Shown: in pieces, positions 1 through 20,709 of the stretch | Position numbering within the stretch: the first letter of the stretch is position 1 | Layout: each line of letters starts with the position of its first letter | NCBI GenBank assembly: GCA_028829895.1 | Contig: CM054178.1 | Coordinates: forward strand, 91,823,058-91,887,057 | Reading direction: 5' to 3' | DNA length: 64,000 nucleotides | Origin: Sinotaia quadrata | Lineage: Eukaryota > Mollusca > Gastropoda > Architaenioglossa > Viviparidae | The notes under the pieces: model-generated | Told to the model about the DNA's origin: nothing | Database searches by the model: none | What the model saw: only the letters and a program-made list of their open reading frames with translations | Program-made: the position numbers and the translations under genes

Positions 1-110
1 CAAGTACATATCACACTGAGTCAATTGCATTTATCGAAATGAGTGTAGCACAGTACAAGTACATATCATACTGAGTCAATTGCATTTATCGAAATGAATG
101 AATATGCAGT
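1..110. repeat. 55-bp direct duplication
   Basis: Two adjacent copies of a 55-bp unit start at 1 and 56. They differ at a few bases, and the second decays after about 45 bp. There is no sign of coding. Confidence 0.8.
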
Positions 111-189
111 ACAACACAACTAACCAAAACCACCACATATAACAACGCAGGTACTTACGGGTTTGTATCACAACAATCCTTGAGAGATA

Positions 190-372
190 TGCTATATATA
201 TATGCATACGTACACATATGCATTCATTAATGCACATACACACACATGCATATACACATATACATACACATACATATACATTAATTAATATACATTCATG
301 CACACATACACATATATCATACACACACATACACACACATACACACATACACACACACACACATATATATAT
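190..372. repeat. (CA)n/(TA)n microsatellite
   Basis: Imperfect alternating CA, ATAC and TATA tracts. Open frames across it are low-complexity Cys/Val or His/Thr runs, not genes. The stretch 373-906 is AT-rich single-copy-looking DNA in which I see nothing. Confidence 0.85.
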
Positions 373-906
373 ATTTAAAATCCACGTTAAACTTCTATCA
401 GCGCAGCAGTTGAATACTCAATATCATTTGTTTACGTTAAGCGCACCAGGACCGCAACATTCAATCAACTATCAACTGTATGATGTGTGAAAGTACTTGA
501 GTGCCGTAGGTAAATTTTTACATTTAAATAAACAAGAATAAAATATTTAATTGTGACTGGGAACTAGAAACTTGAAACCCAAAGTCAAAAGTCAGAATTC
601 AAAAGGACACGTGTTCACACCAAGCTAACGATTGCCTTTCAAAGCCACACTTTTTTCTTCCACTCAAAATTCAAAAGTGATTAGAGAGTGGAATTTTCTA
701 CAGTAAGTAAATTCTTTAATCTCAACCCATTGATTGGCCTCGTTCTCAAAATCATGATCATTGGATAATAAAAAAAACTACTTACTCAGTTTGCATTATG
801 TCATCAATCTAGTATGTTCGTGCCTGGAGCTATTTACTTCAACTCAGGCACTTTCAACAATAACACCATCAAGAGTGTCAAGGTCGGGTTACACTGACAA
901 TTTAGC

Positions 907-1187
907 AATTTATATAACAATTTAAATTTAAAACAGGGAGGGGCACATTTACTCTGTCACACAATTTATATAACAATTTAAATTTAAAACAGGGAGGGGC
1001 ACATTTACTCTGTCACACAATTTATATAACAATTTAAATTTAAAATAGGGAGGGGCACATTTACTCTGTCACACAATTTATAGAACAATTTAAATTTAAA
1101 ACAGGGAGGGGCACATTTACTCTGTCACACAATTTATATAACAATTTAAATTTAAAACAGGGAGGGGCACATTTACTCTGTCACACA
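907..1187. repeat. 56-bp minisatellite, 5 copies
   Basis: Five nearly identical 56-bp units start at 907, 963, 1019, 1075 and 1131. Each holds a GGGAGGGGC core between AT-rich arms. The array lies about 70 bp downstream of the exon 3 donor of the minus-strand receptor gene, so it is intronic. Confidence 0.95.
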
Positions 1188-1255
1188 ATCGTATACAATA
1201 AACATTAGCACAGCTCTAAGATGATTACAAGAAACAACAGTATACAGCACGATAC

Positions 1256-1385
1256 CTTGTAGTCCAGACAAGACTGACATTAATCCTCTTAGGGTACTGG
1301 TACATATATTTAAGGTCCCAAAGGCATGTCATATTTTCCCAGTTGTACACAGTGCAATTTATGGAGTCCACCTTGGCTGGGCGAT
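1256..1385 (-). CDS. Cytokine receptor exon 3: first half of cytokine-binding FN3 domain (D2)
   Basis: Third visible exon of the minus-strand class I cytokine receptor gene. It follows a CAAAG acceptor at 1386 and ends at AAG|GTATCG (donor at 1255). It encodes about 43 residues beginning RPAKVDSINC. The hallmark of the first cytokine-binding domain is present as C-TVYNWENMT-C-L-W, that is Cys-x9-Cys-x-Trp, the spacing seen in gp130. NCT, NMT and NVS are possible N-glycosylation sequons. The exon enters in phase 1, exactly matching the phase 1 end of the Ig exon, and the joined codon is TAT. It leaves in phase 2, in mid domain, which is usual for class I receptor FN3 domains. Reading through the donor meets a stop within about 10 codons. 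The second half of D2, any membrane segment and the kinase-binding tail must lie left of position 1. Family assignment rests on motif and domain order, not on a search. Confidence 0.82.
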
Positions 1386-1591
1386 CTTTGTATAAAAGAA
1401 AGGATTTCAGAATTTTATTTCGTCTGTGTCAATAAAAGCTAATTTAACTGAAATATATAAAATATCTATTGTTCGAATCTGACAAGTATAAGGTAAACTA
1501 ACAAATCAAGTATTCATAGTTCATAATAAATTACGAAATATTATATAGCACTGATGGAAAAATGTGAGAAATCAACCACAGCTCGAAGAGC

Positions 1592-1593
<2 letters not shown>

Positions 1594-1637
<44 letters not shown>
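1594..1637. repeat. (CA)22 microsatellite
   Basis: A pure CA tract. From 1638 to 2104 the sequence is AT-rich and loosely repetitive, with recurring 'aatctgaca'-like words. No gene is seen there. Confidence 0.95.
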
Positions 1638-1639
<2 letters not shown>

Positions 1640-2104
1640 ATGTACAACCGTTCAAATGATGAGACCAACGACAAAACATAAATAAAAATTGATGCTTTGT
1701 ATTTATGTATGTATGAATTGCTTTACGTATTAGAAAATACGTTAAAAATAATATCCATCAGCCTTAAACATTGCTTTATTATGTAACCTCAGTAAAAAAA
1801 CAACATGTACTATTCAATATTAACTGCACATGTTAACACCTCTGATCTTATTTAAACAATGATTCTAGATTCAAAACCTGACCAAGCCATTAACATTAAC
1901 ATACAGATGGCAAATCTGACATAACATAAACATTGCCTCCAGATGACAAAAAGATATTCTGTTTAGCATCTCCAGACTGTATATCTCACCGTAGTATATC
2001 TTCAGAATATAATTAGGAAACTGTCTTAAACACTTATTCAGATTACAAGTCAGACACAATCTTAAATACATCCTTAGCGATGCAAATCTGACATTACCTT
2101 AAAC

Positions 2105-4641
2105 TAGTGGTTCCAAGTTTTTCAAGTAGAGGGCCAAATCTATTATTTTCGGTAATTAAGCGGGCCAGAATGTTATAAAATGATAAATGTTTATCAATGT
2201 TTATAAAATAATAAAAGTCGTGTAATATGATTCTTAACTAACAATTTAAAATAAGTTTCGAAAACTGCTATTAATGTAATTTGTTTACAATTGTAACTGT
2301 TCTTCACAACCACTTACTGAAATTCAGATGCCAGTTTATCAATGTCTGGGCACAAAGCTGTCATGCCGTAAGTCACAAGCACAGCTACGTCACTGTCAGT
2401 GAGTCTGGAACGTTGCTTGTTTTTTATGTGTCATTGCGGAAAATAACTGCTTGCATCTATAAGTCGAACCAAAACGACAAATATATCTCTGTACGAATGA
2501 ACGCAAGTGTTCAAATTGTTCGACAGGCAATAGTCGCCAGAATGAGATCATATGATCAGATGAAGGTGAAGCAGGCAGCTCCAGGAATTTGCATCTCGGT
2601 GCAGAATTGCATTTCAAATCAATTACTTCTTGCTGAAGGTTTTGCTGTAATTGACAGATCTTGACATTCGGAAATACGAACGGATTTACGAAGAGAGCAA
2701 CATTATCCTCTGTTTTCATCTCTTGAAATCTTGAATATACAGAAGACTTTCAACAACCTTGTACTGCAACAAGTCTAATTTCTTTTCCACCACAAGTGTC
2801 TTCAGAGTTGGAAATCCGCTAAAGTCCTTTCTGTTAGCTGTCTGATAAACAGGTGTCTTCAGAGTTGGACACTCCTCTAAAGACCCTTCTGTTAGCTGTC
2901 TGATACACAGGTGCAGTTTCATTTTAAATGCAGAAATGTCATCGCACAAATTTGTGAACAGTTTGTCTTTTCCCTGAAGCTTCGCATTTAAAGTTTAAAT
3001 AAGACGATATGTCCACCAAAAATGCCAGGTCATTAAGCCAGTCATCGTTCTACAGACATTTTCGTTTTGTAGGCAATTCATCTATTTCAGACAAAAACAG
3101 ATAGACACTATTTTTAGTGCACAGAAACGTGACAGTACTTTCCCTTTAGACAGCCATCTGACTTCGCAGTGTAACAGTAGCTCGCCGTATTCCTCGTTCA
3201 GTCTGATAGAAACTGTCTGAACTCACGCTCTGATAAACTGTCTGAACTCACGCCTGTTCAGCGCCTTGCTTCAAATTTTGTTTACACATTTCGGAACAAC
3301 AATCATGATATGTTCCAGATTTAATGCCTTTCCACGCAGTGCTTCCTGGTGAATGATACAGTGATATTTCGATAAATTGTAGTCAAGAAACTTTTCCAAT
3401 AATGCCAGAAATCCAGATGTCAAAGCCGGAACACCGTCGGTGCATACAATATCCAATTTTGTCCAGACTATGTTTTTTTCGTGTACACACAACTTCAGAG
3501 TTTTGTCGTCTATGTTGTTTTTCTGTACACACACCTTCAGAGTTTCAAACAGATCAATTACTTTGGTAGTCGTATGCATCGATTCAAGTCCTAGAAGTTC
3601 TCTAATGACTTCAAAATTATCGTTTATTGCTCGAATAAAAATTACCACCTGAGCAGTGTCAGAAATGTCAGTTGATTCATCCATTGCCAATGAAAAAAAA
3701 AATTTTTAACCTATGCTGCTACTTGATGATGACCATCGCTGGCCAACTCTTTGACTCACCCAGCCATAGTATTATTAGACAAAGGAATCTGATAAAAGTT
3801 TGTCTCACACTTTTTATCGCCATGCATTCAGGCAAAATTTTAAGCGAAGGATTTATTATTTCTTCCGCATCGATGAATGGCTTCATTTTGCGAGCCAACA
3901 GAAGAATGACTTCGTATGACGCAACAACAGCACTCTTGCTCTGTTCTTTAGCCTTGGTGAGAAATGACTGCTCACTGCTCAGAGAACTTCTTTCTTAGCG
4001 ATGAAATCTCTTCTTAGGTCCGATCCGACCGGATAGTGAACTTTTATGTCTAAATGTGTGGTCGTATAGTGTCGTTCCAGGTTATAATTTTCGTGACACA
4101 AACACAAAATCCGTAGATTAAGGAAACCGGTTTACCGCTACGACTAGGCACAAACATACATTTTTCTGTCCAATCTGCATTGAAATCACGACAAGGACGT
4201 CCTCAAATTTTCGCTTTTTACCATTGTTTGATTTTACGTTATCTACGTTCATGCTTATCGGTTTTAACGGTTACTTTTTATTTGGAAAAATCTAATTTCA
4301 ACACAAAATTGCAGACTACTAAACAATTTTAACAGATAACATCATGGCATCTTCGACACTCTGATTGGTCGACAAGAGGGACTACTGCAAATGTTTCTTT
4401 CGCTAAGGGAAAGGGTGCATTTGATAATATCTGAGCACAACAAACACGAGCAGAGTGAATTACCGAACGCAGTTCGAGCATTAATGCAACTTTTTTCTAG
4501 TATTCTAGTTATTATTTATTTATTACATTTTTAAAATTATTAAAATAAATTATATTGATAATTAAATACTGAGGCCTCACGGGCACTTAAAAAGACCTGG
4601 CAGGCCAAAATTTGCCCGCGGCCTTGATTTGGGAACCTCTG
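2105..4641 (-). mobile_element. hAT DNA transposon with terminal inverted repeats and target-site duplication
   Basis: The left end reads TAGTGGTTCCAAGTTTTTC. The right end, read on the minus strand, is CAGAGGTTCCCAAATCAAG, so the tips form an imperfect inverted repeat around GGTTCC. Flanking octamers are CCTTAAAC (2097-2104) and CCTTTAAC (4642-4649), a 7/8 match of the 8-bp length hAT elements make. The 2.54-kb element carries a broken transposase in the same orientation as the receptor gene whose second intron it occupies. Subterminal GGGCC/GGCCC-rich sequence occurs at both ends. Frameshifts, stops and one mismatch in the duplication suggest an old, inactive copy. Confidence 0.85.
2396..4252 (-). 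pseudogene. hAT transposase pseudogene (GTF2IRD2/EPM2AIP1-like family)
   Basis: Pieces of one transposase lie in order on the minus strand, broken by frameshifts and stops. The start (ATG at 4252) leads into a zinc-finger-like segment in which one expected Cys is Tyr (SLIYGFC). A helical region follows near 4000-3700, with AVVASYEVILLLARKMKPF. The RNase-H-like core at 3690-3271 has MAMDESTDISDTAQ, with the first catalytic Asp in DEST, and CTDGVPALTS, with the second. A middle segment with DWLNDLAFLVDISSYLN lies near 3050. The C-terminal dimerisation region at 2719-2396 has SFWRLLPVEQF and CRFGSTYRCKQLFSAM. These words are typical of the hAT group that gave rise to GTF2IRD2-, ZBED- and EPM2AIP1-like genes. 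At least four reading-frame breaks rule out function. Confidence 0.85.
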
Positions 4642-4691
4642 CCTTTAACCTTACCACAAGAGTCCAAGTCCTGAATCTGACACTCCTTCGA

Positions 4692-4880
4692 CATTATCTA
4701 CAAACCATAATACTCACCTTTCCATAAGCATTATCTACAAACCATAATACTCACCTTTCCATAAGCATTATCTACAAACCATAATACTCACCTTTCCATA
4801 AACATTATCTATAAACCATAATACTCACCTTTCCATAAACATTATCTACAAACCACAATACTCACTTTTAAATTTAAATA
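4692..4880. repeat. 37-bp minisatellite, about 5 copies, carrying splice-donor-like words
   Basis: Units start at 4692, 4729, 4766 and so on, decaying after about 4880. On the minus strand, the sense of the receptor gene, each unit contains GGAAAG|GTGAGTATT, a consensus 5' splice site, and 17 nt upstream of it a TTTGTAG or TTTATAG acceptor-like word. The array lies in intron 2 of the receptor gene. Diverged relatives continue to about 5040. Confidence 0.9.
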
Positions 4881-5061
4881 CAGACCATAATACTGACTTT
4901 TTCTTAAACATTATGTGCAAACCGTAGTACTATTGATCTATAAACCCTAACACTTAAACATTATGTACGAATTCTCATACTGAACTTTACATAAAAAGTA
5001 TCTACAAACAATAACACTTACCTTACCATAAACAAACACTAAATTCGCTCTTACCTTTAGG

Positions 5062-5215
5062 ATTCTAAATGTACCTTAAAGAATATCTCTCAACTCTGAT
5101 TCTAACTCGAAGCATTCTAAATGTACCTTAAAGAATATCTCTCAACTCTGATTCTAACTCGAAGCATTCTAAATGTACCTTAAAGAATATCTCTCAACTC
5201 TGATTCTAACTCGAA
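5062..5215. repeat. 52-bp minisatellite, 3 copies, abutting the exon 2 splice donor
   Basis: Copies start at 5062, 5114 and 5166. The last ends a few bases from the GTAAGT donor of exon 2 (5225-5220, minus strand), so the array begins almost at the splice site. Confidence 0.93.
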
Positions 5216-5225
5216 AAAAACTTAC

Positions 5226-5501
5226 AGTCAGCTTCAACAGTCTGAAATCCTATTTCTAGTCTGTCTCCATAGGTTCTGTTCAACCAGCAGACAAAGTGAC
5301 CTTCATCTTCAAGCCGAGTGATGGGATAGCGAAGCCTGATAGTTCGACTGTTGATGACGTCAACGTACTCGGGAGCAATGGCATCCCCATCCCGGGTGAA
5401 GTACATTCGCGATGATGTTTCAATCACATCGCGTTTGGTAATGTTGCAGTACAACGTCAGGTTTTCGCCAACAAACGGTCTAGGGTTGATTGGTCGCACA
5501 A
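5226..5501 (-). CDS. Cytokine receptor exon 2: Ig-like domain (D1)
   Basis: A 276-nt exon with a TTAATTTTCAG acceptor ending at 5502 and a GTAAGT donor at 5225-5220. It is a symmetrical phase 1-1 exon, as Ig-domain exons usually are. It encodes one extracellular Ig-like domain of about 92 residues. The B-strand Cys lies in NLTLYCNIT and the F-strand Cys in DEGHFVCW, 52 residues apart, with the usual acidic-x-Gly run before the second Cys. The canonical core Trp is replaced by Tyr (RMYFTRDG). NLT, NIT and NRT are sequons, consistent with a secreted or cell-surface protein. An N-terminal Ig domain followed by a cytokine-binding FN3 domain (exon 3) is the gp130/LIFR arrangement. No start codon is expected: the exon is internal. 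Confidence 0.87.
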
Positions 5502-5538
5502 CTGAAAATTAATATAGTAAAAATCTTTTGGTCAGACT

Positions 5539-5724
5539 GCTTATTTATTAGACACAGAATTATAAAGCAATAACAGCAAATACGCTGTCCTTAAAGAAGG
5601 GCTTATTTATTATACACAGAATTATAAAGCAATAACAGCAAATACGCTGTCCTTAAAGAAGGGCTTATTTATTAGACACAGAATTATAAAGCAAAAACAG
5701 CAAATACGCTGTCCTTAAAGTTCT
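5539..5724. repeat. 62-bp minisatellite, 3 copies
   Basis: Copies start at 5539, 5601 and 5663 with few mismatches. The array is in intron 1 of the receptor gene, just upstream of exon 2. Confidence 0.92.
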
Positions 5725-5737
5725 CCTTTCCTTTGCC

Positions 5738-5845
5738 ACATCTCGTCACATGAGATCACATCATGCTACGTCATATCACGTCATACCAAGTCACATTTTG
5801 TCACAGCATATCACGTAACAGTATGTCATATCACATCACAAACAT
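5738..5845. repeat. Degenerate TCACATCA/GTCATATCAC short tandem repeat
   Basis: About ten variants of a roughly 10-bp word (TCACRTCA, GTCATATCAC). From 5846 to 6015 I see nothing distinctive. Confidence 0.65.
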
Positions 5846-6015
5846 CTATTTCTTTTAAAATGCCACGTGCTTGTGTACCACCACAATTGCCTGACCCCGA
5901 AACAATGACAAATTCGTTTTGTTTTCTGCATCAAATTCAAGTGCAATTGACATGACACAGAAGGAGAAGAACATACTATTAATATGAAATACATTCAGTA
6001 CAATTATTTTCAAGC

Positions 6016-6975
6016 TGTGGCGGGTAAATTTGCTTATCCCTATTTCTAAACTTAATTGTTAAATAAATTGTTCGACTGTCGAAGTAACCCGACCGTGAAC
6101 ACTCCTTATGACGTATCAGAGTTGAAGTAAACAACTCGAGTTGAGAATATGCTAGAAATTGTTGATGCAATGCAAACTAGTTCCAAATGGATGAGTATAT
6201 ATTTTTTATTATCCAGTGGTTAAGATTTACGAGAATGAGACCAGCCAAAGGGCAGAGATAAAAAGTTTATACACTGTAGAAAATTCTATTGTCTAATCAC
6301 TTGAATTTGGTGTGACAAGAAGTCCGGTCATGAAATGTCATTAGCTTAATGGTGAGTTAAGATTGATTGAGAGAGAATGGACTTAAAATATTTCATGCAT
6401 TTTTGCTATTGACATGTTATACTTGCATTTTACGTAGAGATGAATTATGTGAGAAGACTATTATTTCTACAAATTATGAACTATGAAGCTTATATGTAGT
6501 TTGTTAAACACTTGACATTATTTTTTAGTGAAACTGCTCATAAAACTATTATGCTGTATGCGTATATCGGGCTAATAAATACTGTTGCAGAAAACTGGAA
6601 GTTGAGATGTAAATGTAAGAAAGAATGGAGTTAAAAGGAATAAAGTGAAAACTTGGCATTCTTCCCTGACTATATTTTGCAGGGGAAAAGCATCCTTTCC
6701 TTTTATTAATTATCTAATCTCCTGGTTTACTGATTATAAACCGCTAAGACCATGAAGTATCTACCAAAGGGTGTAAGTGTAAGGAATACACTACACTCTG
6801 AGGATGTATGGTGGCAAGGTATGCTAAGTAATTCGAGCAATTACTGGTCTTAGGACATTGCTGGAAATTGCTACAATTGTTGTTCTGCTAGACCAGCTAG
6901 AGGGAGCTGGTATAGCAAAGGAGTGCATAGGTAGCCTCGAGAGAACAGCAGCTATTCGGTGTTCTACTGCGTGAT
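6016..6975 (+). mobile_element. Interspersed repeat family, copy A (3' truncated)
   Basis: The 5' end TGTGGCGGGTAAATTTGC and the following ~950 bp are colinear with copies starting at 27662, 28503, 32906, 51747 and 58092. Shared landmarks are a CCAAT-like box (ACCAGCCAA), an ATAAAAAGTT TATA-like word, the block GAGAGAATGGACTTA, and a GCTAATAAATACTG polyadenylation-like word. No coding capacity is visible. Homology stops where a 34-bp minisatellite begins. It lies antisense in intron 1 of the receptor gene. Confidence 0.75.
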
Positions 6976-7334
6976 TGACAATAATAGCTGAAGAAGAAAA
7001 ATGTGGGATTGACAATAATAACTGAAGAAGAAAAATGTGGGATTGACAATAATAACTGAAGAAGAAAAATGTGGGATTGACAATAATAACTGTAGAAGAA
7101 AAATGTGGGATTGACAATAATAACTAAAGAAGAAAAATGTGGGATTGACAATAATAACTGAAGAAGAAAAATGTGGGATTGACAATAATAACTGAAGAAG
7201 AAAAATGTGGGATTGACAATAATAACTAAAGAAGAAAAATGTGGGATTGACAATATTAACTGAAGAAGAAAAATGTGGGATTGACAACAATAACTGAAGA
7301 AGAAAAATGTGGCTTTGACAATAATAACTGAACA
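6974..7334. repeat. 34-bp minisatellite, about 10.5 copies
   Basis: The unit has the form TTGACAATAATAACTGAAG plus AAGAAAAATGTGGGA, 34 bp. Since 34 is not a multiple of 3, all three minus frames cycle through the same Phe/Ser/Ile-rich words, giving long spurious open frames. The array starts in copy A of the interspersed family, at the position matching GAATTGATAATTC near 59056 in copy E. From 7335 to 8214 the DNA is AT-rich with no feature I can support. Confidence 0.95.
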
Positions 7335-8249
7335 AGAAAAGCTAGATTTATGCTTGGTATCCATGCCATACAATTTTATTATAAGATTACGCAAGTCAGG
7401 TAATGTTTTATTCTGTTTATTTTCATTCCCTATTTTAAAAGGAGAGACGAGCAGTCTTTAGGTTTCTAAAAATAGCACTCTACTCAGATAATTATGTGCT
7501 ATAAATTAAAGCTGTTAAATTATCCCTGTTGAATAATGTTCTTATTATGTTATCCTTGTCATTATGTTACTCGTTTCACATACTGTTATCATTTAAGTTG
7601 CCAATCACATAATATTATTTTTAGTTGGCCTATGTCCAGTAATGTTATTTTTCGTTTATTTTAATTCACTAATATATCATACAACAGGCCACAAATTCTG
7701 TGCGTAGCTCTAAAAAAAATAAACAGCACTATAAACGAAATTAGAATATTTTTCTATAAATTTAATGCAACTAATTGTTCATTCTGCCAATCAGAATCTC
7801 ACTATTAATAATAACATAAAAAGGAAATATTGCTTTGAGTGTATTTCGTAGAAAGGATGAATATATCATATGCCTGGCATATACACACACGCGCACGCAC
7901 TTACGTATGTCGTGGTGATAGGACAGAATGAAATATTAGTTTTATACACGAGGTTAGCGAAACAAAACAGATCGCACAATGAAATAGTGTGACGTCATAA
8001 CATTACAGTTTAATTCTAGAAGCTAGCAAAATAACTAAAGCAACACTGACTGCAAAGAAAGCGTGTAACGTCACGATATTTGATTCCCCCACCCGCCCCC
8101 GCAATGCACAAGTCGCAAACTGTCACATTTCTTTTAACCCATCTCCCCATCCTAGCTTGACCTACCGTTCTGTATTTATCCTTTTTGGAGAAAAATTAAA
8201 ACCTAAACACACACACTCATACACACACACGCGCACATATGCTAACTAA

Positions 8250-8301
<52 letters not shown>
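8250..8301. repeat. (CA)n microsatellite
   Basis: A CA tract with a short ACACGCGC lead-in from about 8211. From 8302 to 8905 (intron 1 of the receptor gene) I see nothing else. Confidence 0.93.
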
Positions 8302-8303
<2 letters not shown>

Positions 8304-8910
8304 ACTCGTTACTCCTTATGTTTAAATTTAGAAATTAATTTCTGAATAATAAACCTTTACTCCCATTTTTTTAAAAAATCAATACTGTAACAATTTTTCT
8401 TTTAAAAGCAGAAGCTTTGAACTGCTGAGATGAGAAGCGACATCTAAAAATAATGAAATTAAAAAAACAACGAAAAATATTTTGTAGGACTCGCGAGGTC
8501 TGATTGGATATACTCATAATGGATATTTGAATATTTTTATTGATATATAATCTCAAAGAGGATAAAATTCAAAGTAATGCCTAGAAGAAATCTGAGCTGA
8601 TATACGGCAGATCTCAAATAAAACAACCAATAACCAGAAGATAAGAAAATTATGAACTAATTTGCATAATGAATGTCTTTGTGGCCATGTCCAAGAAGGA
8701 GTATATTTTGGAAAAAGGAAAGACAGCTTAATGTGGCAATGAAGAAACAGATTTCGTTTTTTAAAGTTTAGATTGTCAGCGACCTCGAATCTCATTCAAG
8801 ATTTATTTTAAATGTCTACGGGGTTTTTTTTTATAAGGAATTTATAAATATTCAGAAATAACATCTTTGTTTCATCATTGCCAATATTATTAGTTTTCAT
8901 AAGCACTTAC

Positions 8911-9016
8911 CGCCATTTTCGTTATAGAAGTATGAACTGGACTCTCCAGTAGGGAAGGAAAAGAGACCAAAAAACATGGCAACAAGAACTTGTAGGTCAC
9001 ATTCCTTGCGCGCCAT
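8911..9016 (-). CDS. Cytokine receptor exon 1: start codon and signal peptide
   Basis: ATG at 9016-9014 (G at +4) opens a frame of 35 codons plus one base, ending at G|GTAAGTGC (donor from 8910). The peptide starts MARKECD, then has a hydrophobic core QVLVAMFFGLFSF, then polar residues PTGESSSYFYNENG. This is a good N-terminal signal peptide, with cleavage probably near FPTG/ES. The exon ends in phase 1, exactly what the Ig exon needs; the junction codon becomes GTT (Val), giving NENG-VVRPINP. Intron 1 is about 3.4 kb. The exact transcript start is not visible, and non-coding 5' exons could lie further right. The whole visible gene encodes about 170 residues before leaving the window. Confidence 0.75.
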
Positions 9017-9020
9017 CGGT

Positions 9021-9166
9021 GCGTATCTGAGGATATTGGAAGGACTGTTGACAAACTACTCTTGTTCAATGGCGAATATTCTTGCACAGTGCGTACATGA
9101 GGATATTGGAAGGACTGTTGACAGACTACTATTGTTCAATGGACAATATTCTTGCACGGTGCGTAC
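9021..9166. repeat. 70-bp duplication just upstream of the receptor start codon
   Basis: Two 70-bp units (from 9021 and 9091) and the beginning of a third at 9161. They lie 5 bp to 150 bp upstream of the receptor ATG on the minus strand, so they are in the 5' leader or promoter. From 9167 to 9518 nothing else is seen. Confidence 0.85.
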
Positions 9167-9513
9167 ATATCTCTACATGAGCCGGACTACGACAATCACC
9201 AATCACATCTAAAACCCAAAACAGGTTTGTTTATACACTTTGTACTTTAGTTTTTGTCGATTACATTCTCTATTTTATTATCAGGAAAAAGTAGCTGTGG
9301 TAATATTGTTCTAATTCCACTGTTCACGTTTGAGAAACAGTTTGTGACTTGGAGAAAAATGTACTTGAGCAAGTTCTATACCTTCTGTGGTCCATAATCT
9401 CTACTGACTTCCAATTCGTCCACACAAGTCGACATATTCTGAAAATTATAAATAAAAAATATCAACCGAAATGCGAATATAAAATTCATTTATTTAATCC
9501 AATTTATTTATCT

Positions 9514-18200: not shown

Positions 18201-20709
18201 TCATCTGTCATTTGACCTAGTGTGGTCGCTGGGTCGATGAGCTGCTGAACGGTTGACCAGCTCCCTCCACTTGTCTCGATCACGTGCCAAACTCTGTGTC
18301 TCTGCAAATTTTTTCAAAGAACATTCTGCATGCAATGTTTCAGCCCACTTTTTTCTCTGTCTTTTTGCCTCGTTTTCTGCCACCCATAAACTACCATGCA
18401 GGATTGTTGTGGAGAAGTTGTTGGCTCGATAACATGGCCATACCATTTCATCTTTCTTTTTTGACACTGATGAGGTCTTCATATTCGCAGTTCACGTCTG
18501 ATGGTATTACACACATCTTCGTTTGTGATGCGATCTTTGTAAGAGATGCCAAGGATGGTTCTGTAGTATCTCATTTCAAGTGCTTGTATTCTGAGCTGTA
18601 TTTCTGCCATCAGGGTCAATGCTTCACATGCATACAGAAAGATTGAGAGGACTAGCGTTTTCAGAAGCCTTATTTTTGTTTTTAGACATAATTTTTTGTC
18701 TCTCCAAATGGATCTTAACTTTGACATGGCTGCCAATGTCTGAGCTGCTATAGACAAGACTTTTGCTTTTGATCCCTTGTCAGTGATGACAGAGCCTAGA
18801 TACTTGAATTGGCTCTTGTCCTCTGACCTGGATTTTGGTTGAAACTTGTTTTTCACCATTTGTCACCATTTGTCACCAGCTTGGGTTTTTTTTTGCATGC
18901 CAAATCTGGAGGAGGATTCATCAAGGGTTATCACTAAGGTGACAAGCTCATCCTCACTGCCAGCCAGTCGATGTCATCTGCAAAGCGGAGATTGGTGATG
19001 TTTTGCCCTCGAATGCTGACTGTACCATAGTGATGTTCCAGAGCATCATTCATGATGCATTCTAAGTAGATGTTGAAAAGCATGAGTGACAGAAGACAGC
19101 TCTGACATACACCAACTGTTGTCTGAAGCCATTCTCCCACAGATCCTTGGACAAGTACTGCACTGGTGGCTTTAGTATATAGCTGCTTGATGGTGTTAGT
19201 CAGCCTTTGGCCCATGTTGTATATCTTCATTGTGGCCCATAATGCCTCAAAGGCTTTTTTGAAATATATGAACACATGATAAATGTCTTGCTGAATTTGT
19301 GAGTATTTATCGCACATAGGAACCTTGAGATTAAATATTTGTTTTTGTCTTCTTCTTTCAGCCCTAAACCCAGCCTATTCTTCAGCAATAATTTCTTCTG
19401 CATGGGGTTTCAGTCTGTTCAAGATGGCCTTCAGCATCACTTTGCTAGCATGGCTGATCAAACTGATTGTTCTATAATTTTGAAATAGGGAAAGATTACA
19501 TTTCTTTGGGAGTGTTATAATCAATGATTGTGTCCATGATGTGGGTCATTCACCTGTCTGTGTTATAATCAATGATTGTGTCCATGTTGTGGGTCATTCA
19601 CCTGTCTGTGTTATAATCAATGATTGTGTCCATGTTGTGGGTCATTCACCTGTCTGATTTTGTTGCATATTTTTGTTAGTAAAACTAACAATGCTTCTCC
19701 ACCACTCTTGATAATTTCCACTGGGATGTTGTCAACTTCAGCTGCTTTCACATTCTTTACTGCTCTTAATGCTGCTTCCACCTCTTTTTTTGAGAATGGA
19801 AAAATCATCATCATTTGACGACTCTGGCACTGCAAGCAATTCGGGGTCTCCTTTGGATGGTTAATTGTAGAGATATTTTGCAATATTCAGTCCATTACCT
19901 CATTGAATTCTGTGAGGCATTCCCCATCTATGTTTTGAATTGTGTTGACTCTTGGTTGTTGCTGTCTTGTTAGATCTTTCACAGTTTGGCATGCCAGTTT
20001 GCTGTAGTTTTTCTTCAATCTCTGTGCATTTTGTCCAATCCAGTTAGTTTTAGCGTTCTTCAAACCTTTTTGAATTTGCTTTTTAATTTCTCTGTATTCT
20101 TGTGTTCCTGTTGTATCTTTGCTTCTTTTTAGATCTCTCCAGGTTTCACATATTTTGTGAATTTCATCTATAACCCAGGTTTGTTCTTTGGGTGATGGAG
20201 GCCAAATGTCCTTGGCAGCTTCTGTCATTCCTGTGTTGAAGGCGTTCTGTAAACATTTCAACATCGTCATCCATAGTAAGGAGTGGGGCAAATTTTCTCT
20301 GACTGAGGCTTGGAAGGATTCATAGGGTCCTTCAATCTATCAAGGTTGAACCTAAGCTTGTTCTTTGGTTTAATTATTTTCTTTAGCTTCACATGGAAAT
20401 TCATAATCACGAGATCATGGTCACTTCTGATATCCAGTGCCAGGAACTGTCCTTGTTTCTGCTCTATTGATGCCAGATCTAAAACGATTCTGTACCAATA
20501 TATAGTCGATTTAGTTGTGATGGGTTCCATTTGCTGCATACTATGTCCAGTATGGGTTCCATTTGCTGCATATTATGTCCAGTATCGTGAAGCTTTATGC
20601 TTTCCAGGATGTTGGCTAGTACCAAGTTGTTGTAGCTTACAAACCCAAGCAGCAGTCTCCCTCTTTCATTGATATGGTCATTACAGGATGGTCTACAATG
20701 ATCTTTCAC
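18201..20709 (-). pseudogene. RTE endonuclease C-terminal half and reverse transcriptase, broken
   Basis: In order on the minus strand: endonuclease C-half (NDHINERGR, then DIRSDHDLVIMNF with the SDH motif); a linker; RT fingers and palm (KEVEAALRAVKN, VDNIPVEIIKSGG); motif A-like FIYFKKAFEALWATMK, in which the usual catalytic Asp is Tyr; GVCQSCLLSLMLFNIYLE; the catalytic NLRFADD; then the downstream YLGSVITDKGSK, SIFLYACEALT and ISYKDRITNEDV block. The C-terminus has KKFAETQSLARDRDKWRELV. Frameshifts and stops separate these blocks. A 48-bp unit is tripled at 19514-19657, and about 35 bp is duplicated near 20526-20590. It is not functional. Confidence 0.85.
19514..19657. repeat. 48-bp tandem triplication inside the RT gene
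   Basis: Copies start at 19514, 19562 and 19610. On the minus strand each repeats the segment reading RQVNDPQHGHNH-stop within the reverse transcriptase region, so it arose after or during decay of the element. Confidence 0.92.

Follow-up and report, generated by a model that had tools for sequence, protein, structure and literature searches.

A probable gp130-type class I cytokine receptor gene and its relatives in the genome of the gastropod Sinotaia quadrata

The stretch analyzed here, referred to as the window, comprises 64,000 nucleotides of the Sinotaia quadrata genome (G000:C2:91823058-91887057 of a 984 Mb assembly). Near its left end lies the 5' part of a gene that we identify as a probable class I cytokine receptor of the gp130 layout. 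Three minus-strand exons of 106, 276, and 130 nucleotides, ending in phases 1, 1, and 2, respectively, were joined in phase to give 170 open codons. The part of the gene inside the window is organized as follows.

8911..9016, minus strand: coding exon 1, with the start ATG, the signal peptide h-region VLVAMFFGLFSF at a hydropathy peak, and the donor GCG/gtaagt; end phase 1
5502..8910, minus strand: intron 1, phase 1, 3.4 kb, containing a 34-bp minisatellite at 6973-7340
5226..5501, minus strand: coding exon 2, immunoglobulin (Ig)-like domain, acceptor ttttcag/, donor GACT/gtaagt; phases 1-1
1386..5225, minus strand: intron 2, phase 1, 3.8 kb, with decayed transposase-like frames at about 4260-2280
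1256..1385, minus strand: coding exon 3, first half of domain D1 of the cytokine-binding module, acceptor atacaaag/, donor ACAAG/gtatcg, C-x9-C-x-W; phases 1-2
1..1255, minus strand: start of intron 3, phase 2; the gene extends past the left end of the window

The joined product (MARKECDL...VWTT, 170 residues) consists of a signal peptide, an Ig-like domain, and the first half of D1. Exon 3 carries the C-x9-C-x-W pattern CTVYNWENMTCLW, and the Ig domain of exon 2 lies immediately N-terminal to the cytokine-binding module, which is the layout of gp130 and Domeless. The preliminary description of the window had proposed three minus-strand exons with matching phases that encode these same elements, and both proposals were borne out: the frame is open over 170 codons, the splice sites are GT-AG, the expected elements were all found in the joined exons, and a related protein, P0001, spans both junctions. 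Its junction positions, 8910/5502 and 5225/1386, place the exons correctly, with 5502 and 1386 to be read as the last bases of the introns.

P0001 was the one match at E ≤ 1 when the 170 residues were searched against 5.77 billion proteins, of which 42 candidates were scored. It is likewise 170 residues long and aligns with an E value of 6.1e-53 and 60% identity over 86% of the query, covering all three exons and both junctions. The codon split at the second junction (T/AT, Y) gives the same residue as in P0001, and the C-terminal end of P0001 is the end of exon 3. Because its source contig of 1,301 bases is too short for introns like those of 3.4 and 3.8 kb, P0001 would represent a spliced transcript; its source tag 'lgn' presumably stands for Logan. 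The three-exon match is more than chance, and P0001 is likely the orthologue of the window gene. Padding the 170 residues with X to reach full-length candidates produced 53 candidates, none at E 1.

Searching PDB sequences with the 170 residues of the window returned CRLF1 first (E 0.0024), then nanobody and shark VNAR chains, with gp130 at 0.49. With P0001 as the query gp130 was best (E 6.9e-8), followed by IL-23R (approximately 5e-4) and CRLF1 (0.0016). An AlphaFold model of P0001, to which the window's two exons were added as extra rows, had a mean predicted local distance difference test score (pLDDT) of 60, with block means of 71-90 over residues 51-120 in the Ig part. When this model was compared with the PDB by fold, three of the top four ranks (1, 2, and 4) went to gp130 chains, named as such from the P0001 sequence-match list, and the third rank to CRLF1, with many T-cell receptor and antibody chains lower in the list. 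In these fold alignments P0001 differs from vertebrate gp130 (IL6ST) in showing only 22-27% identity to its chains.

The exons left of the window were identified by comparing the flank with a paralogue on C5, termed B, using tblastn, and by subsequent choice of splice sites. A very loose tblastn of the window gene's frames against B gave noise, and a stricter tblastn was used instead. Ten further exons were read, comprising six FN3 (fibronectin type III) exons, one membrane exon, one proline-rich exon, and two more; positions left of the window are given as negative numbers in window coordinates.

-2937..-3028, minus strand: left-flank exon 1 of 10, from the comparison of the left flank with B
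-3317..-3539, minus strand: left-flank exon 2 of 10, same comparison
-5451..-5605, minus strand: left-flank exon 3 of 10, same comparison
-8484..-8655, minus strand: left-flank exon 4 of 10, same comparison
-10664..-10822, minus strand: left-flank exon 5 of 10, same comparison
-11527..-11688, minus strand: left-flank exon 6 of 10, same comparison
-13140..-13227, minus strand: membrane exon, same comparison
-14869..-14932, minus strand: proline-rich juxtamembrane exon, following the membrane exon
-17252..-17341, minus strand: tail exon, following the proline-rich exon
-19122..-20366, minus strand: last exon, with the stop codon, end of the cytoplasmic tail

The leftward FN3 domains, membrane helix, and proline-rich exon that the preliminary description had anticipated were therefore present next to the window. 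The six FN3 exons form three pairs, corresponding to three FN3 domains before the membrane helix, and the same arrangement is seen in B. The helix of the window gene, IIGCVLGLLLFLLIIMVGI, has a mean hydropathy of 3.14 over 19 residues, and the cytoplasmic tail is approximately 470 residues long, its first exon holding the proline-rich stretch. Paralogue B was read as 12 exons from 106658297 to 106672859 on C5, including all four exons of the cytokine-binding module and all five FN3 exon pairs; this reading starts after the first exon, and the tail exon, seen as an open frame, was left unjoined. Its Ig exon is 48% identical to exon 2 of the window gene. In all nine exons that allow comparison, the phases of the two genes are equal, an agreement that is not fully independent as splice sites were chosen partly through this same comparison.

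Against the PDB, the ectodomain of B matched gp130 D4-D6 best (E 8.8e-7), and the downstream part of the window gene also matched gp130 best (E 1.4e-4); in both searches ROBO, RPTP, and contactin chains came next. Pfam ig and fn3 scored above their cut-offs in B, where IL6Ra-bind aligned over the whole of D1 but remained below its cut-off (17.9 versus 24.3 bits), and fn3 was above cut-off in the downstream part of the window gene, where the scan covered the first 401 of its 815 residues.

According to the available text of PMC1963337, the class I consensus in the first FN3 fold is CX9-10CXWX26-32CX10-15C, and a slightly variable WSXWS stands at the end of the second; the accessible part of PMC4325515 describes box 1 as a proline-rich JAK2-binding motif close to the membrane. 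The window gene contains CX9CXW, its second D1 half lying in masked exons, and the B module has both Cys pairs (CX9CXW, X31, then CX9C). A box-1-like LKSDLPPLP lies in the exon following the membrane helix of the window gene and fails a tighter pattern that was also tried. The pattern used to recognize it was a loose form of box 1. Elsewhere in the genome, the STAT family PF02864 scored above cut-off at two places on C3, in a stretch that we take to be the STAT DNA-binding domain. These two exons (G000:C3:91577425-91627259) lie approximately 50 kb apart on one strand and perhaps belong to two tandem genes.

The window gene belongs to a larger family. P0001 gave nine matches in the genome at E 0.001; with a 44-residue D1 query taken from a clustered member there were 14 at E 0.1, and 12 of these were made into loci. 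Eleven of these 12 show an open exon that carries CX9CXW and is flanked by candidate splice sites, in phase 1 on the upstream side and in phase 2 on the downstream side; the twelfth, L044, did not show an open D1 exon with CX9CXW. One more locus, L007, was added from the P0001 matches and has CX10CXW and several possible donors. There are at least 12 distinct D1 exons: those of the window gene, B, and L007, and nine that are clustered on C2 at 133.888-134.626 Mb, within 0.74 Mb. Outside this count are three further D1 matches (L044 and two unfetched) and L005, matched in its Ig part only. The cluster region as a whole (G000:C2:133888197-134690647) holds the nine D1 exons checked and three weak matches, and L005 (G000:C2:92015427-92015531) is a further family Ig exon, VTPNDPRPFIGENLTLVC, situated between the window gene and L007 on C2.

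In its D1 half the window gene is 57% identical to P0001, 57% to B, 41% to L007, and 25-34% to the cluster, within which identity reaches 89% (L035, the same as L034, excluded). Two of the nine cluster members, 18 kb apart, share one D1 frame and could represent a single gene that was assembled twice, and several members have a donor in another phase that scores equally well or better. Examination of the cluster members covered the D1 exon and, for one gene termed F, also the sequence beyond it. The module exons of F have phases 1-2, 2-1, 1-0, and 0-1, with sites picked among candidates. Past the module, FN3-like exon frames were recognized by eye, together with a hydrophobic stretch, VISTALLALVFAGMLLACL, of mean hydropathy 2.54; tblastn for these FN3 exons gave no match, and they rest on that reading by eye.

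Intron phases provide a character independent of the fast-changing sequence for placing the origins of the class I and class II modules. The modules of B and F both have phases 1-2-1-0-1, and the window gene agrees where it is readable. Drosophila Domeless is described in the available text of PMC1963337 as similar to gp130 in topology and as having its module in one exon, whereas the modules of B and F occupy four. The single-exon module of Domeless proper is also absent from the window gene, where exon 3 ends in phase 2 inside D1. The phases 1-2-1-0-1 of B and F are a likeness to vertebrate class II cytokine receptors, from which the family of the window gene differs by the class I Cys and Trp pattern and the N-terminal Ig domain. 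On the simplest reading, this phase pattern would predate both the protostome/deuterostome and the class I/class II splits, with introns lost in flies, a dating that draws on two fully read modules from one species. Vertebrate class I genes also have phases 1-2-1-0-1, which was not used as evidence. The literature searched yielded no report of the intron phases of class I genes.

The molluscan origin suggested in the preliminary description is supported by hemocyanin and by an oyster homologue. PF14830 (mollusc-type hemocyanin) has 33 matches in the genome, all within 0.21 Mb of C2, and none in the 14 control genomes. One exon of this tandem locus (G000:C2:47038876-47246060) matches PDB hemocyanins, KLH1 included, and several of the top entries are presumably gastropod. 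The homologue, P0002, is the deposited Saccostrea echinata uncharacterized protein LOC133190732 of 963 residues. It was the only match at E 0.001 to the B ectodomain among 6,205 candidates (E 8.0e-28, 84% of the query). P0002 is colinear with the receptor over the ectodomain and membrane helix and shares the motif NWQNMTC; it differs in its low identity to B (24%), in its annotation, and in having the receptor phosphatase PTPRF as its best PDB match. Its AlphaFold model, built from four rows, had a mean pLDDT of 38.5, was confident nowhere except in the signal helix, the membrane helix, and some short stretches, and was left unused.

In the parts of the published work available to us, gp130 is said to appear first in mollusks (PMC8226699), though a figure legend there places gp130 in lampreys; IL6R is traced to Mollusca with a signal peptide, Ig, IL6R domain, and FN3 domains (PMC13203501); and class I receptors are held to derive most likely from gp130-like receptors of invertebrates (PMC7274943). 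The window gene is thus another molluscan gp130/IL6R-like receptor of a kind already in print. The preliminary description's view that lophotrochozoan receptors are little described is qualified by these published homologues. We found no report of a growth of the class I family in molluscs in the open-access literature searched. The main interest lies in the cluster. Expansion of the class I family has been linked to acquired immunity (available text of PMC1963337). We lean towards the view that this large, partly clustered gp130-type set, with 12 checked D1 exons and as many as 16 places, is a class I repertoire that diversified in an animal lacking adaptive immunity of the vertebrate kind. 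If so, the class I family would have grown independently in a mollusc, and the cluster would supply candidate chains for finding molluscan cytokines.

The window gene and B together give a signal peptide, an Ig domain, a module of two FN3 domains, three further FN3 domains, a membrane helix, and a long tail, which as a predicted layout is that of vertebrate gp130. We put the probability that the window gene is the 5' part of a class I cytokine receptor of this layout, a type I membrane protein of the gp130/Domeless branch, at about 0.88. This figure covers the class I/gp130-layout identity only; loss of JAK signalling is an alternative for the mechanism and falls inside that identity. Of the gp130/Domeless type named in the preliminary description, the gp130 side stands, in the layout and in the best PDB matches, while the Domeless intron pattern fails on the split module. 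Several results weigh against the identification. Three module exons of the window gene are masked and were inferred from B and F. The hidden Markov model search proposed in the preliminary description gave no Pfam match to the 170 residues even at E 10, and the matches of P0001 to ig, IL6Ra-bind, TSLPR_D1, LIFR_N, and CRLF2_D1 were all under their cut-offs. The second Cys pair of B, CX9C, is one residue short of the published CX10-15C, and the WSXWS site is, in a departure from vertebrate gp130, degenerate in the three relatives where it could be read: PSEWI stands at this place in B, FSEPS in F, and WSEVT in P0002. The PDB matches of P0002, to receptor phosphatases, likewise count against a plain gp130 label. 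Support for box 1 is weak, as 2.2% of shuffled tails carry a box-1-like motif in their first 60 residues, and one scan of B found no equivalent of the box-1 exon. YxxQ occurs once in each tail, which 35% and 23% of shuffles equal or exceed and which is therefore at chance level. JAK, sought with PF18379, had no match in this genome or in any control genome, so that the search was uninformative.

An Ig/FN3 surface protein of the adhesion or receptor-phosphatase type, with Cys-x9-Cys-x-Trp arising by chance, would be consistent with the degenerate WSXWS, with the matches of the last FN3 domain to ROBO, RPTP, and contactin, and with P0002, which at E 0.01 has six PDB matches, all of them FN3 chains of receptor phosphatases and none of them gp130. 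We nevertheless consider it very improbable: gp130 is the best match for P0001 (Ig and D1), for B (D4-D6), and for the downstream part of the window gene, IL6Ra-bind and LIFR_N align at D1, though below their cut-offs, and both Cys pairs are present in the B module. In addition, all PDB matches of the 815-residue downstream part at E 1 fall within residues 1-341 (ectodomain and membrane stretch), with none in the tail. A pseudogene or assembly artefact has even less to commend it. The gene is rich in minisatellites, intron 2 holds decayed transposon frames, and two cluster members share a D1 exon 18 kb apart; however, the exons read are open, have GT-AG sites, and agree with B, and the 60% identity to P0001 falls in the joined coding frame.

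A class I receptor that no longer signals through JAK, serving instead as a decoy, co-receptor chain, or pattern-recognition chain, is unlikely but has a precedent in Drosophila, where a short non-signalling receptor lowers JAK/STAT signalling (available text of PMC2914635). The motif that is merely box-1-like in the window gene and was not found in the scan of B would fit such a chain, as would the size and clustering of the family, whereas the membrane helix is kept in the window gene, B, and F, the window gene retains a long tail, and STAT exons are present in the genome.

On the favored reading, the Ig domain and module of the window gene would bind a secreted ligand, either a helical cytokine or another, two receptor chains would pair, a JAK docked at the proline-rich stretch would phosphorylate tail tyrosines, and STAT would be recruited to the receptor tail. 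Given the at least 12 D1 exons in the genome, the chain of the window gene probably pairs or competes with related chains.

Among the remaining features of the window, the intron 2 frames (for example 3705-3274, 2994-2719, and 2749-2399, minus strand) are decayed and transposase-like, with a hAT/ZBED look by eye; the two of them scanned with Pfam had no match at E 0.01. Broken reverse transcriptase frames resembling long interspersed nuclear elements were seen by eye at 18204-20572 on the minus strand, and one of three scanned matched DUF6451 below its cut-off. This was the only match among seven transposon-like window frames scanned, the other six having none at E 0.01. Scanning the window for tRNAs and with Rfam at the gathering threshold gave no match. 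Minisatellites with units of 52, 56, 34, and 70 bp lie at 5062-5215, 906-1189, 6973-7340, and 9019-9168, respectively; the first three are intronic and the last lies shortly before the start codon, and the 52-bp array starts approximately ten bases beyond the exon 2 donor.
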